A stretch of 64,000 nt of DNA from Pristionchus mayeri. Its lineage: Eukaryota > Nematoda > Chromadorea > Rhabditida > Neodiplogasteridae. The position numbers and the translations under genes were made by a program. The DNA is taken from contig BTRK01000005.1 in assembly GCA_036245805.1 (NCBI GenBank), forward strand, positions 19,754,984 to 19,818,983, in the 5' to 3' direction. Below, one piece after another: positions 41,674 to 50,600 of the stretch; within the stretch, counting starts at the first letter, position 1; each line of letters opens with the position of its first letter. The notes beneath the pieces are model-generated. The model had not been told where the DNA came from, ran no database searches, and saw nothing but the letters and a program-made list of their open reading frames with translations.

Positions 41674-44600
41674 ATAGCAGTGGAGGAAGCGATCATCGCT
41701 CAGTTGAAGGAGCTCAACCTCGTCGGAAGGAGGTTTGTGCCACTCTTTCTACAGCACAACCTTTTACGCAATGTGAAATCAAGTCTACAATTTAGCGTGT
41801 TCTTTTTACTTTTACATTGATAATCAAATGCTCTATATTTTCCTTTGTGATCACCTATTCTTCCCATGATAGATGTCCCTGTCTTGATAAAGGAATCTCA
41901 GAAGCAATGAGGCAGACCAGAGAGACGCCTACGAACTGGGACAAGTATACGATCAAGTGAGGAGCATCATCCAGAGAGACACCGATATGACTAGGTACGA
42001 TAGGAATGATGGATCACGAACTGATAGGGGAGAACTGTGGATGGGTAGATCACTTGAGTACTGTAGGAAATCGAAGTTGGAAGACCTCGTGGACCCTTCG
42101 GAAGTTCTGCGCCACCTGGTGAGCACTATTGCTATTGTTGTTTTATATTTTTGTTTACTTCTCTCGTTGAGATTCTGTTCCTCCGTGGGTGGGAGTCGGT
42201 GGAAATGGCACAGACTTACTGTGATAGGGCAGTCGACGCACTCTTGAAGGTATGGAGGAGAAGGGAAAGGTGGGGGATAGACTGGGATGTACTCCTTCCT
42301 TGCAGGTGACTGAGTTGACGTACGACGTCGACCATCGGAAGGCAGCCATCGTACTCGGTGAGTGGACAATCACTATTCATTTGGCCCCTTCTCGATTGAT
42401 CGTCCCCGTGAAGTCTCTTCTTAAGGAAGGAATGGTTGCAGGAGTGGTGGAGGCAGCTGCAGAATTGCTGGTGCTGGAAGTGAGTCAATGGGGAGCGGGA
42501 GCTTCGATGGATCACCACCATGTCAATGGGAATAGGAGGAACGAGAGGAGGGAAGTCAGGAAACAGATCGGTACGGCTTATTCCACTCATTCCTTCCACC
42601 ATCTCTCTCCCTCTCCAATCCATTCCATTGCCTTGCAGCCTCAGTGCTCACTAATCTGACATTCGGGAGTCCTCCGATGAAGAGATTGGTGGCAGACTAC
42701 GATGGATTCATGGAGGCCGTCATCGAGATCATCGAGAACGCCCCCAATCTCGTCCCCGTGAGTACTCAGTCATTGTCCGAGTGATACGGGAAAGGAGGCA
42801 ATGCGAAGTATCCAATTTATCTTTTAATTAGGATGAATTATTCATTGTCCCTTGCAGCCGTACTCTAATCTGCTTCGCAACGTAAGTTGGCCGACGTGCA
42901 AGGGGATGAACTCACTCTTCAATGCCACTCCTGCACTCACGAAGGCAGCAGTCGAGGCCCATCGGAGAAGTCAGTCTTGTCTTATCCAGTGGTTCCTTCA
43001 TTCGAAAAGCATAAATTATGACACGCAATTGCTCGAGGAGACGCGTTTATACTTTAAAAAATTCAGTATTTTCTCCTTATTTATGATTGTTAAACTTCCG
43101 ATTCCAATTGAATTCACATTTTCCCACAGCTCTATTGGTAGAAACACGTACCCATACTTATACACACATACACTCACATACTCAAAATGGAAAATTGTGA
43201 TATTGGTAATTGATGTTGCAGAGGAGGAGAAGTCGGTGAAGTCGACGTTGTCTGCCATCTGGAACATCGTGGGGAGTGGAGGGGAAGAGTGTGTGAGGAG
43301 AGTCGTCGAGACGGAAGGATTCGTTGACATGCTCATACAACTACTCTCCATGGATGCACAGAGGACTGTCAGTCATACCAATTACATCTATTTATTCTAT
43401 TATTCTAAATCTAGTCGTTTTTTAAACAACCTAAATATCCTTTTTCAGTTGGTGGTGGAGTACTCGACGGGGATTCTCAAGTACGCCTCAGCCGAGTTAG
43501 TCAGAGGAAATAAGCTCGAGCTATGCGTAAGCTATTACTTCATAGTTGTACACCCACTGTCTTCCCCCCCCCCCTCTGCCTAATGAGGATGACTGATCTC
43601 CTCCTCCCTCCTTGCAGTCATCAGTGCGTGCCCCCCCCCCCTCTGCCTAGTGAGGATGACTGATCTCCTCCTCCCCCCTTGCAGTCATCAGTGCGTGCCC
43701 CCCCCCTCTGCCTAGTGAGGATGACTGATCTCCTCCTCCCCCCTTGCAGTCATCAGTGCGTGCCCCCCCCCCTCTGCCTAGTGAGGATGACTGATCTCCT
43801 CCTCCCCCCTTGCAGTCATCAGTGCGTGCCCCCCCCCCTCTGCCTAGTGAGGATGACTGATCTCCTCCTCCCCCCTTGCAGTCATCAGTGCGTGCCCCCC
43901 CCCCCCCTCTGCCTAGTGAGGATGACTGATCTCCTCCTCCCCCCTTGCAGTCATCAGTGCGTGCCCCCCCCCCCTCTGCCTAGTGAGGATGACTGATCTC
44001 CTCCTCCCCCCTTGCAGTCATCAGTGCGTGCCCCCCCCCCCCTCTGCCTAGTGAGGATGACTGATCTCCTCCTCCCCCCTTGCAGTCATCAGTGCGTGCC
44101 CCCCCCCCCTCTGCCTAGTGAGGATGACTGATCTCCTCCTCCCCCCTTGCAGTCATCAGTGCGTGCCCCCCCCCCTCTGCCTAGTGAGGATGACTGATCT
44201 CCTCCTCCCCCCTTGCAGTCATCAGTGCGTGCCCCCCCCCCCCTCTGCCTAGTGAGGATGACTGATCTCCTCCTCCCCCCTTGCAGTCATCAGTGCGTGC
44301 CCCCCCCCCCTCTGCCTAGTGAGGATGACTGATCTCCTCCTCCCCCCTTGCAGTCATCAGTGCGTGCCCCCCCCCCCCCTCTGCCTAGTGAGGATGACTG
44401 ATCTCCTCCTCCCCCCTTGCAGTCATCAGTGCGTGCCCCCCCCCCCTCTGCCTAGTGAGGATGACTGATCTCCTCCTCCCCCCTTGCAGTCATCAGTGCG
44501 TGCCCCCCCCTCTGCCTAGTGAGGATGACTGATCTCCTCCTCCCCCCTTGCAGTCATCAGTGCGTGCCCCCCCCCCCCTCTGCCTAGTGAGGATGACTGA

Positions 44601-47600
44601 TCTCCTCCTCCCCCCTTGCAGTCATCAGTGCGTGCCCCCCCCCCCTCTGCCTAGTGAGGATGACTGATCTCCTCCTCCCCCCTTGCAGTCATCAGTGCGT
44701 GCCCCCCCCCCCTCTGCCTAGTGAGGATGACTGATCTCCTCCTCCCCCCTTGCAGTCATCAGTGCGTGCCCCCCCCCCCTCTGCCTAGTGAGGATGACTG
44801 ATCTCCTCCTCCCCCCTTGCAGTCATCAGTGCGTGCCCCCCCCCCCCCTCTGCCTAGTGAGGATGACTGATCTCCTCCTCCCCCCTTGCAGTCATCAGTG
44901 CGTGCCCCCCCCCCCTCTGCCTAGTGAGGATGACTGATCTCCTCCTCCCCCCTTGCAGTCATCAGTGCGTGCCCCCCCCCCCTCTGCCTAGTGAGGATGA
45001 CTGATCTCCTCCTCCCCCCTTGCAGTCATCAGTGCGTGCCCCCCCCCCCTCTGCCTAGTGAGGATGACTGATCTCCTCCTCCCCCCTTGCAGTCATCAGT
45101 GCGTGCCCCCCCCCCTCTGCCTAGTGAGGATGACTGATCTCCTCCTCCCCCCTTGCAGTCATCAGTGCGTGCCCCCCCCCCCTCTGCCTAGTGAGGATGA
45201 CTGATCTCCTCCTCCCCCCTTGCAGTCATCAGTGCGTGCCCCCCCCTCTGCCTAGTGAGGATGACTGATCTCCTCCTCCCCCCTTGCAGTCATCAGTGCG
45301 TGCCCCCCCCCCTCTGCCTAGTGAGGATGACTGATCTCCTCCTCCCCCCTTGCAGTCATCAGTGCGTGCCCCCCCCCCCTCTGCCTAGTGAGGATGACTG
45401 ATCTCCTCCTCCCCCCTTGCAGTCATCAGTGCGTGCCCCCCCCCCCCTCTGCCTAGTGAGGATGACTGATCTCCTCCTCCCCCCTTGCAGTCATCAGTGC
45501 GTGCCCCCCCCTCTGCCTAGTGAGGATGACTGATCTCCTCCTCCCCCCTTGCAGTCATCAGTGCGTGCCCCCCCCCCTCTGCCTAGTGAGGATGACTGAT
45601 CTCCTCCTCCCCCCTTGCAGTCATCAGTGCGTGCCCCCCCCTCTGCCTAGTGAGGATGACTGATCTCCTCCTCCCCCCTTGCAGTCATCAGTGCGTGCCC
45701 CCCCCCCTCTGCCTAGTGAGGATGACTGATCTCCTCCTCCCCCCTTGCAGTCATCAGTGCGTGCCCCCCCCTCTGCCTAGTGAGGATGACTGATCTCCTT
45801 CTCCCCCCTTGCAGTCATCAGTGCGTGCTCGTCTCCTCCATCGTCTCCTTCCTCTCCTTCGAGCCTCGTCGATGACGATCGTCAAGAATGCTCTCTGTGC
45901 AGTGAGTGAAGTCGCCGCCAAGGATCCATTCACTGTCGTGGTTCGTTTCTCTTCTCATTCGGCCATTATCGTATTCACAAGTGTTTAGGTGTGTCGTGTC
46001 ATACTGTATGTACTTTATTCAAGTCAGCTAGTGATTTATTGATGCAGCAGAAGGAATTCACTTCTTCCCATTGCAATATATTAATGACCCTACTTGCAAG
46101 CTTATTTTGCAATTTTGCAGAAGTACATGGATAACATTGCGAAGGGATCACTGGAGAAACTGCAGCTGTCGAATGACAACGACATCCGGAGACCTGCCAA
46201 GGTACGCATTTCGCCTGCCCCTAGTTTGATGAACAGTTGACATATCTCACTTCCTGTTATAGAAATAATATTATTTTAATCAATTTATAAGCACTTTGAA
46301 CATTGAGATAATTGTGATTGTACAGGCAATTCTGTCTCGTATCTCATCGGGAGAGTACGGAGGAGGAGGAGGAGTGATGAGTAGAAGTGCCCATGTGGGC
46401 AATGGAAGAGGTGAGTCCACTATCGAATGATGAGGAGGGAGAGTCATGTCGGTTATTGTGATGGATTCCCCTTTGAGAAATGAGTGCCTCGATGCGGACT
46501 GATCGACTGCTCCCTCGACGATCTCCCTACTGCCCTCCCGTTGGAGGAGGAGTGCCCAATGGTGAGAGGGGGGAGATTAGATGGATCTCCATGGGATGGA
46601 GAGCAATGTAACTATTAGGCACGTAGATGTGGTAGTGTCGACTGATTTCCCTTGCAGGAGTGTCTCTGATGGAGGCTCCTATGTCGTCGTCTCATCGTGC
46701 CTCCTCCCTCCCTCGACACTTCAATGAAGGAGTCAGAGGAGGAGGAGGGATGAGCAGCAGTCTCTACGGGGGAGGAGGGGGAGGGACAGGGACAGGGGGA
46801 CAGTACACGTGAGTTCATTCTTATTCAGACCGTTTATTATAAGTTCGGTCTTTTTGGTGGCCATCAATGTCATTGTTGCACTTTGAATGTATGCCACTGT
46901 CATTGGAAACGACTGAAAAGAATGGAGGAGGATCGTTGTAACTACTTTCCTTTGCAGTATGGGTTCTCCCTCTCCTCTCTACGGCAACATGGACACCATC
47001 CGTGCAGCAGCTCAGCAGCAGGCGCAGCAACAACAGTCGATGCACGTGCAGCAGAGGAGACAGATACAGCTGCAGCAGCAGCAAGCCCCACCCAACTACG
47101 GCTGCCCACCCCCTCATCCTATCCCTGAGGGATTCCCGATTGCAACAACCTTCGCCCCGCCCCCTGGGATGGCTCCGCCCCATTCCTTCCCTTCGACATC
47201 CTTCGCCCCGCCCCCTTTCTCGATAGGAGGAACAACTGCGAATGGGGGTGGAGGACAAGAAGAAGAAGTATTGGGAGCGAATGGACCTCCCACACTGGAA
47301 GTGGAGAGAGAGAGAGAGGGAGAAGGAGGAGAGGAATACGACTATGATGATGAAGACGATGAGTTGAGTACACAGGTGAGGAGAGAAGGAGAGAGGGAAG
47401 GGAAGAGAGTCTCTTCCAGGTCACTCGATCTGGCAGTATGGAGAACATCGACGACGACGGATTATCACACGTATCTATTTTTAATTAAAATATTTAATTG
47501 TTTATGTTTTGAAAAATATGAATTTATTGCACTGCATCTGAATAATGGAAGTATGAGGTACATCTCATGACTCCTCTTTGCAGGACATCTCTGGCTTCCA

Positions 47601-50600
47601 ATCCAATGTGGAGACTGCTAACAATTCGTGTCGACTCTCGCCCATATCCTACTCTGATCTCCCCGATTCACCCACCCAATGTGCAGCACTCAGAGATAAC
47701 ACTGTGCAGGTAGGGAGAGGGAGAGGGAGTAGGAGAGAAGGGAATACTCCATTCCAGTTGTCCCTTCCCTCATTCCCCATCCCCTCTTCAACCCTCGTGC
47801 CCACGATGCCCTTCGGGACGGGACCCCATTCGTCTTCTGATGGATCCTCCGGAGGTCTCTCCTCATCGCACACCCACTCTTCCCACACCACACCACACGC
47901 GACGAGTGCAGAACAGACGCCGACGTATTCCTCCCTCAACGCCCACTACACCTACGGTAGGCACATATGATACCGTACCCTGTGAGAGGACTAAGTAATA
48001 TATAATATGATTATTAATTACCTCTGTTTCTAGCTAGTTTCCCAAACTATTGAAATATTGATAATGCTGAACAGTTTGTGTGATAATATGAATAACGCTT
48101 GTGATACTCGTAATATTGCTGTCTGATCTCTCTTCTACTTGGTCTACTCTTTCTGTTGAATGCGTGACTCTAGTCTATTTCTGATAAATGAGTATTGTCC
48201 ATTGTGTGGTGTGATTGGTGCAGGGAGTGTGACGTGCAAAGAATAAGTTGAATTACATCGTAGACACACAAGACACACAACTGTACTGCTTCCATTATTA
48301 TGCGATCAGGGAGAGATTCTGTGAGAAAGAAGGGTGGAGTCATATGTCTGTCCATGCTTGATAACGAGACGTCGATGATCCAACAATCGAAGTTATTGTA
48401 GATTCACCTCGATTTGGCGCTCTTCGAATCGCAGCTGAAGACTCCGCCCCCTCGACCAGCCATGGTGAGGATTACGGTAGTTACATCGATAGATCAATGA
48501 GTCTACTGTGTGTAGGAATACGGTGGTGATGAGGTTTTTTTCAGAAGTAGAAGAGAGGAGCGAAGATGATGATGATGACTACGGTGTGTATGAAGAAGAT
48601 ATTCTCGATCGATCGATTCAAGAAGCTCTCCTCCAGAGGGAAGAGAAGAGAGACGTGAGAGAAGGGAGGGGAGAGTGGGAAGACAATGAATGCATTCAGC
48701 ATCTCAATTCGTTCCTTCTTGGTTCGATCTCCTCTGCTCTTCCTCCTGATCGATCCCCCTCGAAGAGCAGTCGATACTCCAATACAAGCACTCTCAAGGA
48801 GGGTCAGTTCTCTTTCTTCTCTCGATTAGATAAGACTATGCAGTGGGTCCCTACCGCCTCTCTAATCAAATTTTGAAGTTTTAATTACATAACTCAATTA
48901 ATTTTGGTTAAAAAACTTCGCTCTTTTCACGCTCTTTAACATTAAAAAAAAGAGCGAAGCTTTTTAACCAAAATTAATTGAGTTATGTAATTAAAACTTC
49001 AAAATTTGATTAGAGAGGCGGGTACTGCCAGGGGCAGAGAGGGGACGTTTTGGTATGGACCCCTATGCAGTATATGCACAACTGTTTGGAAATATTAATA
49101 TGATGGTTGTAGATGATCTCTTGGCGGCTGCGATTGAGTCTGCGATGCCCAAAGTGAGTGGAGAAGAAGGAAGGGGAAGATGATTTCTTCCTCTTCAGAT
49201 TGGATCTCTCTCTTCACCCCGTGGAACACTGATGCAACTGCCAAAAAACGGGGTTGCCCGGTGGTCGACGACGACGACCACTGAAGGGCAGAAGATGTCG
49301 GAGAGAGGAGAGAGAGGAGAGGGGAGAAAGGAGGAGGAAGAGAGTGAGGAGGTCAGATCTACCCTCTTATGGAGTGTGGTAGGAAGTTGCTGTGAAGGAG
49401 AATGAAGTAGTTCCGTTCTTCTTTTCCCCATCTCCTTCGTTGTTCAGAGTGACGAGGAGGGCGGTCCCATGGGTGGATCTCTCGTTGGCACCATGCCAAG
49501 AGACGTCGAGGAGGAGATGGAAGCTGAACGAATTGCCATTGACTGCAGTAGTCTCAAGAGGTATGAGCACTCCCCCTCTGGCACTCTGCCAATTCCATTC
49601 TCTCTACAGGAAGCCCCGCCCTCCGCGCACTTCGCTCCTCCCTCGTCAGATGGCCACGCCCACTTCGACAAGGACGACGAGACAGGCTACGCCTACTTCC
49701 AATGGTCGTCCCTCGCCCCGCCCCTCGTCGATTGGGAGGCCTCGCCCCCTCACATCGACCCCCGCCAGTTCGAAGAGTCGATTGAGCAAGTGAGAGATTA
49801 GCCCCGGCGCGAAGCGCCGGGGCAATTTTGGCCGGGAAACGAGAGATTCCCACAGTCGGAAAGGTTCCTGAGAGGGTAGGGTATCGACTACCGTTCAAAC
49901 TCAAATCCAAGTATCCAGCTTTTGGGGATCTTCTGCGCGAGCATAGGGGATGCCAATTCCAAAATTTCAAGTCTCTATCACAACCGGAAGTGCCTCAGGC
50001 TGACTCCGATTTTTGTCGGTTTCGCGATGCCCCGGTTTTTTGAGTTAGGGGCGCGAGCATCGTAGAGAGACGTGCTATAGCTCATTTGAAAGAGCGCACA
50101 CGATTGCCCGCCTAGAGACTTTTCGGAATTGTTAAATTCCTTCTGCAGAGGTGCGAAAATCGCCTCCAAAGTTCGAAATTTTGACCTCTTGTGCAGTCTC
50201 CCCACACTTTCGGTTATCCAAGCTCTCAATGGAAAATCCAAGTTCCTACCGGCCTACTGTAGACTAATATTGACACGGCGAATCCAATGAGCTTATTATC
50301 GAAAAGATTGGTTTCCATCTGTAGGTGCTACCACCTATCAAACATTTTCCCGCGCGAATTTATCCCTCTGCCTCCTCCTCCTCTCTCCCTCCCCCGCGCC
50401 TCACTCTTGGAAAGATCAACGGTCGTAAACACTGCGAGTCGTCTCAAGTTGTCAACAACGTTCGGGAACGATATACAAATTCGAAGCTAGGGTTATACGA
50501 GCATCATATTTGGAATCACCATGTTAAATAACCCACGGCGGCATGGTTTGTTGGGGTCGAACGGGTACTTTCAGTTTTGTTCTTTTGAACCCTCTAGGTG

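Follow-up and report, generated by a model that had tools for sequence, protein, structure and literature searches.

Tandemly repeated intron-exon junctions in an APC-like gene and a GLI-type gene of the nematode Pristionchus mayeri

A 64,000-nucleotide stretch of the genome of the nematode Pristionchus mayeri (contig BTRK01000005.1 of assembly GCA_036245805.1, positions 19,754,984 to 19,818,983 of the forward strand, hereafter the window) carries an APC-like gene in which one intron ends in a tandem array of its own 3' splice site, each of the 34 units containing an acceptor and the first bases of the following exon. We refer to this gene as apr-1, the label given to it in a preliminary description of the same DNA. 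New here are a second array of this kind, which the genome carries in a GLI-type gene, and the single copy of that junction in a paralogue. The two arrays appear, from their sequence, to have the anatomy of the 'mirages' of amphioxus, and they are probably splice-junction minisatellites that lack a function and in which the last acceptor is the one used.

Results

Within the window, Tandem Repeats Finder (TRF) reported a single array across the junction (43564-45828, period 67, 34.0 copies, matches 97%), and parsing resolved the same segment into 34 units, confirming that near-identical acceptors repeat across the intron-exon junction. The preliminary description had counted about 33 copies but some 34 acceptors, and had given the unit as 66-67 bp; parsing gives 34 of each and a range of 64-69 bp. 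Each unit contains a run of C, the motif CTGAT, a pyrimidine tract, TTGCAG and 13-14 nt of the start of the following exon, and interior units read, in this order, C-run (8-13), TCTGCCTAGTGAGGATGACTGATCTCCTCCTCCCCCC, TTGCAG and TCATCAGTGCGTG(C), the 14th base of the exon, a C, being common to the exon part of the unit and to the C-run. The array thus spans the boundary in every unit (TTGCAG plus at least 13 exon nt in 34/34), and TTGCAGTCATCAGTGCGTGC, CTGAT and GTGCGT are each present 34 times within 43521-45870.

Outside the C-run (56 nt) 32 of the 34 units are identical, the substitutions being two in unit 1 and one in unit 34, so that a homogenised interior is flanked by divergent edge units. 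The C-run itself measures 8 (5 units), 9 (1), 10 (7), 11 (14), 12 (4) or 13 (3) bases. The order of these lengths along the array was not significant (permutation P 0.08-0.52 for lags 1-8; P 0.066 for a trend) and a higher-order duplication, sought in the C-run lengths, was rejected. Whether slippage of the C-run is an ongoing process, as had been suggested, cannot be told from homopolymer sequencing error. Outside the array, the plus strand of the window has 14 runs of at least eight G and one such run of C.

The 20-mer TTGCAGTCATCAGTGCGTGC occurs 34 times in the genome (290.8 Mb in 73 contigs, of which C1 to C5 measure 39.7-50.3 Mb), always within the apr-1 array, with no copy on the other strand and none for the reversed control, and a chance origin of the pattern is therefore excluded. 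Similarly, a 103-bp query comprising the last unit and the exon gave 34 matches among the best candidates scored, all in this array.

The exons on both sides of the array were called by hand (Table 1), as were 12 other introns of the gene, which measure 53-252 nt. A 235-residue query from these exons matched APC chains of the Protein Data Bank (PDB) over residues 3-208 with an E value of about 2e-12, in agreement with the earlier assignment of the gene as APC-like. Four designed armadillo or importin-type chains scored higher (best 8.9e-14), and the Pfam Arm family was matched with an E value of 2e-4. The array junction falls after residue 152 of the query, and the alignment to the best designed chain crosses it free of gaps (the alignments printed were those of the two best chains, both designed). 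These matches show a gene with predicted armadillo repeats, APC being among its best natural matches. Searching the genome with 157 residues at E values up to 1 returned four rows, all from this gene, one of them reading through the end of the upstream exon into array sequence. The APC-like query had three protein matches, of which the two close ones (P0002 and P0003) do not cover the junction; the array frame and the exon frame had no protein matches as queries, and for apr-1 these protein searches found no single-copy relative.

From the donor GTAAGC at 43527 the intron would measure 91 nt if spliced to the first acceptor, a normal length for this gene, and 2288 nt if spliced to the last. 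We scored the splice sites with a small model trained on the 12 hand-called introns, in which 33 of the 34 acceptors reach 12.6 bits and the first 11.7, against 6.7-15.7 for the training acceptors. Splicing to any of the 33 inner acceptors with the remaining array retained leads to a stop after 9 to 103 residues, and the 34th acceptor alone opens into the 126-nt exon, as the preliminary description had stated.

The units also contain donor-like sites. GTGCGT, six bases past each acceptor, scores 6.3 bits and lies inside the range of the 12 training donors (6.0-10.6). A second site, CTA/GTGAGG (the slash marks the splice boundary), is present in 33 of 34 units (window 43631-45827), scores 6.2 bits and lies 29-34 bases past each of the 33 upstream acceptors; unit 1 has no such donor, as it reads CTAATGAGG, with AT replacing GT. 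Of the 33 possible pseudo-exons ending at GTGAGG, 5 would keep the frame, and introns of 35 nt would lie between such pseudo-exons. The donor model is crude, because the true apr-1 donor, which was kept out of the training, scores only 2.5 bits.

A genome-wide search for three CTTGCAG motifs separated by gaps of 50-80, complete for that pattern only, gave 48 matches in exactly two clusters, with 0 and 0 matches for the reversed control on the two strands. Of these matches, 32 lie in the apr-1 array and 16 at C3:24911669-24912984 on the minus strand, where a second array spans the acceptor of another gene (locus L033, Table 1). The encoded protein is of the five-finger GLI zinc-finger type, matching 2gli with an E value of 1.5e-67 over residues 2-152 of 168. 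The intron has the donor CAG/GTATCG, and each unit ends in CCCTTGCAG/GGCGCAGTA, nine bases being exonic, so that CTTGCAG with nine exon nt is found in 18/18 units. Past the last unit the exon goes on with CATGCTCGTAGTG, which translates as FRAQYMLVVHVRRHTGEKP, where 2gli has FKAQYMLVVHMRRHTGEKP. All 17 upstream acceptors lead to RAQ and then, after these three codons, to a stop. The 18th leads into an open exon of 64 nt and gives RAQYMLVVH, which at this place differs from 2gli only by R for K; the placement of the junction is fixed by this conservation of the protein. The intron would measure 138 nt through the first acceptor and 1447 nt through the last.

Among the 17 complete GLI units five columns vary, and one of them shifts from A to G along the array, as expected of tandem growth. 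Exclusion of the edge copies is not clear in this array, as the variants sit inside it. The unit sequences of the two arrays differ, and both are of minisatellite size (64-69 bp in apr-1 and 77 bp in the GLI-type gene; described cases span 10-160 bp).

A search for GLI-like places in the genome returned 13 rows, two of which were fetched (L034 and L035). L034 is a GLI-type paralogue with the junction in one copy: an alignment of the GLI unit to it, with some gaps, has 57 identities in 63 aligned bases and includes the nine exon bases, its local score being 52 against a maximum of 29 when L034 was shuffled 500 times. The acceptor in L034 is CCCTTGAAG, and past the junction the frame reads RAQYMLVVHVRCHTGQKPNVC. 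No tandem repeat was found in L034 or in L035. None of five short strings from the second finger was present in the three forward frames of L034, which may be a damaged gene. Given the single junction copy in L034, the GLI array grew from one local junction, either after the gene was duplicated or in one of the two copies only. The comparison of one copy with an array is here one between duplicate genes, not between haplotypes.

Two structural features were considered and discarded. In the apr-1 unit GATGACTG can pair with CAGTCATC over the AG in a stem of 8 pairs; in a post hoc test, stems this long appeared in 4 of 2000 shuffles and at 4 of 280 further AGs of the gene region. Nevertheless, a hairpin masking the acceptors was rejected as a general mechanism: the overall fold is unremarkable (z -0.65 to -1.26 for four stretches, the stem being absent from the best fold of the longest, 137 nt), and there is no such stem in the GLI array, where the three acceptors tried gave 3 pairs. 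A G-quadruplex as the cause of expansion was not supported, with no three-tier motif on the G-rich strand of the 2264-bp array; two-tier G-quadruplexes appear in a program fold of the array.

Table 1 Features of the two arrays and their host genes.
Feature	Location	Strand	Remarks
Exon 5' of the apr-1 array	43449..43526	+	LVVEYSTGILKYASAELVRGNKLELC, phase 0 at its end; called by hand on splice sites and open frame; included in the 235-residue query matching APC chains
Array-bearing intron, 2288 nt	43527..45814	+	donor GTAAGC, last acceptor TTGCAG; hand-called
apr-1 tandem array, 34 units	43564..45827 (C5:19798547-19800810)	+	TRF, unit parsing, genome-wide 20-mer count
Unit 1, edge variant	43564..43630	+	CTAATGAGG replaces CTAGTGAGG, CTCCCTCC replaces CTCCCCCC
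Unit 34, edge variant	45764..45827	+	single C to T in the pyrimidine tract; sole acceptor opening into the exon
Exon following the last acceptor, 126 nt	45815..45940	+	SSVRARLLHRLLPLLRASSMTIVKNALCAVSEVAAKDPFTVV, donor GTTCGT; hand-called; Pfam Arm over residues 156-186 of the query
Subsequent exon	46121..46201	+	KYMDNIAKGSLEKLQLSNDNDIRRPAK; hand-called
Second array, 18 x 77 bp, 98% matches	L033 2160-3545 (C3:24911660-24913045)	minus	spans the acceptor of a GLI-type gene
GLI-type paralogue L034	C1:28713301-28715600		junction in one copy

Other tandem repeats were surveyed by running TRF on the window and on 20 stretches of 10 kb (264 kb in all, both strands), which gave 124 rows; 10 passed a loose filter, the apr-1 array among them. 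In one other passing row that was inspected, L029 4662-4877, no exon was shown, and the end of its last unit with 12 further bases recurs at four other places. With gaps of 80-110, CTTGCAG gave 59 forward and no reverse matches (control 0 and 1), 58 of them in one block at 1.80-1.88 Mb of C3 and one on C6. With gaps of 20-50, YTTGCAG had 1238 matches on the forward strand and 132 on the reverse, the control having 125 and 97; among the matches listed, all except the first fall within a single tandem array of 31-bp units on C1. That array extends over at least 12 kb (C1:24338218-24350253) and has TTTGCAG in many units. The window itself also holds an inverted repeat at 48854-49021, which looks like a small mobile element (arms of 74 nt at 48854-48927 and 48948-49021, 99% complementary, 20 nt apart), and an 83-bp unit in 2.2 copies at 610-792, which lies 5' of exons that by eye resemble a chromodomain protein and which, also by eye, does not include the acceptor.

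Discussion

The preliminary description held that no case of this kind had been described. This has to be corrected, as the mirages of amphioxus are the same kind of structure (PMC3087553, PMC3902484): they are presented as minisatellite-like tandem duplications of intron-exon boundaries in the globin genes BflGb6 and BflGb9 (PMC3087553). In BflGb6 the repeated segment combines the 3' end of an intron with the first part of the exon, and two haplotypes carry 6 and 3 such units, each of 150-160 bp (PMC3087553, PMC3902484). As described for BflGb6 and BflGb9, concerted evolution acts inside the repeats with the boundary copies excluded, and many repeats contain splice signals (PMC3087553), as here. 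The numbers are different, the few longer units of BflGb6 contrasting with 34 units of 64-69 bp in apr-1 and 18 units of 77 bp in the GLI-type gene. The amphioxus Adh3 mirage, with units of 10-72 bp, likewise has repeats at splice boundaries and shows somatic length changes, and the mirage-like PGBD5 repeats are described as imperfect, with units of 60 and 108 bp, unlike the arrays reported here (PMC3087553, PMC3902484). Elsewhere the similarities are more distant: a minisatellite of human G1P3/IFI6 also repeats a splice site, but, judging from the title of that report, donors and not acceptors; a tandem duplication in a potato RdRp gene is tied to intron structure, but is, by the title and opening of the abstract, one that created a new intron, with no mention there of arrays built from an acceptor already present (PMC4974935); and in dog LHX3 a short intronic repeat is linked to aberrant splicing (PMC3223203). 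The last two were the nearest cases in our literature search, in which no further acceptor array outside amphioxus was recognised and whose scope did not extend to most subscription papers. The arrays of P. mayeri are possibly the first mirages outside amphioxus.

If both arrays are mirages, unequal exchange or slippage would drive their growth and homogenise the interior, leaving the edge units different, and the array would be tolerated because the last copy retains a complete exon. The exon is probably recognised as one unit with the donor that follows it, at a distance of 126 nt in apr-1 and of 64 nt in the GLI-type gene, in which case the last acceptor would be chosen and the entire array removed with the intron. 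The array would then have no function of its own, although a fraction of transcripts may be spliced to inner acceptors, acquire a premature stop and be degraded for that reason. Coding potential and the amphioxus genes are the grounds for expecting the last acceptor to be used. Several points weigh against such a harmless array. The first apr-1 acceptor scores near the last (11.7 versus 12.6 bits), and the first acceptors give introns of normal length in both genes (91 and 138 nt), so that machinery pairing splice sites across short introns should pick them and truncate the transcript. Furthermore, no enhancer of the last exon was identified, no program search for enhancers having been made, and the amphioxus report itself points to the repeats as potential cryptic splice sites (PMC3087553).

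The same observations would suit an array that lowers or regulates the output of apr-1, in which frequent use of inner acceptors yields premature-stop RNA and the effect depends on copy number. The 33 inner acceptors score within the range of the gene, all of them lead to stops when the array is retained, and with the first the intron has a length usual for the gene. Nevertheless, APC and GLI genes are usually essential, and for this reason heavy loss of output should be selected against. Moreover, the mirages of amphioxus are reported not to disturb regular splicing, and those of Adh and troponin C are reported to yield no aberrant mRNA (PMC3087553, PMC3902484). We favour the tolerated minisatellite over a crippled gene because of these reports of undisturbed splicing, and regard such a poison intron as unlikely, though it deserves to be taken seriously. 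An inflation of a few true copies by the assembler is improbable. The interior apr-1 units are indeed identical outside the C-run, and the differences in the C-run may be sequencing errors, but the contig is chromosome-sized (50.3 Mb), the edge units are unlike the interior, and simple multiplication of one unit would not yield the base variants at five columns of the GLI array, one of them ordered; the second array and the single-copy paralogue weaken this concern further.

Splicing could also proceed in steps, with the GT six bases into the exon part serving as donor for a later acceptor and six in-frame bases gained at each step. AG, six bases and GT recur in both arrays (TCATCA/GTGCGT in apr-1 and GGCGCA/GTAGGG in the GLI-type gene), with 6.3 bits for GTGCGT where the true donor has 2.5, and 1.7 bits for GTAGGG where the true donor has 2.0. 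However, those scores come from a model of 12 hand-called introns, a GT is expected by chance at a given place about once in 16, and an exon of 6 nt is very small. In apr-1 the GTGAGG site, which the preliminary description missed and which scores nearly the same, would compete past each of the 33 upstream acceptors, with few of its pseudo-exons in frame. A recursive splicing site has the donor directly after the acceptor (AG/GT), and in both arrays six bases intervene. The micro-exon or recursive splicing proposed earlier is thus possible in the sequence but unsupported, and we consider stepwise splicing very improbable. Equally doubtful is its elaboration, a spliceosome walking by 6-nt steps, which would cross the decoy acceptors without a change of frame and add a codon pair per step to a product of variable length. 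Finally, tandem arrays are numerous in this genome and a dispersed repeat or satellite might have landed at an exon by chance, but the apr-1 unit is found nowhere else and contains the gene's own exon bases, and the GLI unit is homologous to the single junction of its paralogue, which makes this explanation hardly credible.

Two genes of one genome thus present series of 34 and 18 near-identical acceptors in which the protein can come from the last alone, and such arrays provide a natural test of acceptor choice in natural genes. If their mRNA is normal, neither the acceptor sequence nor a position close to the upstream donor would select the site, and the choice would probably come from pairing with the downstream donor. 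A splice-boundary minisatellite that has arisen twice in one genome, in one case from a single junction, bears on the lengthening of introns and on whether, as has been proposed, new introns are seeded by duplications of this kind. As the host is a nematode, mirages would not be confined to amphioxus, if both arrays are indeed mirages.

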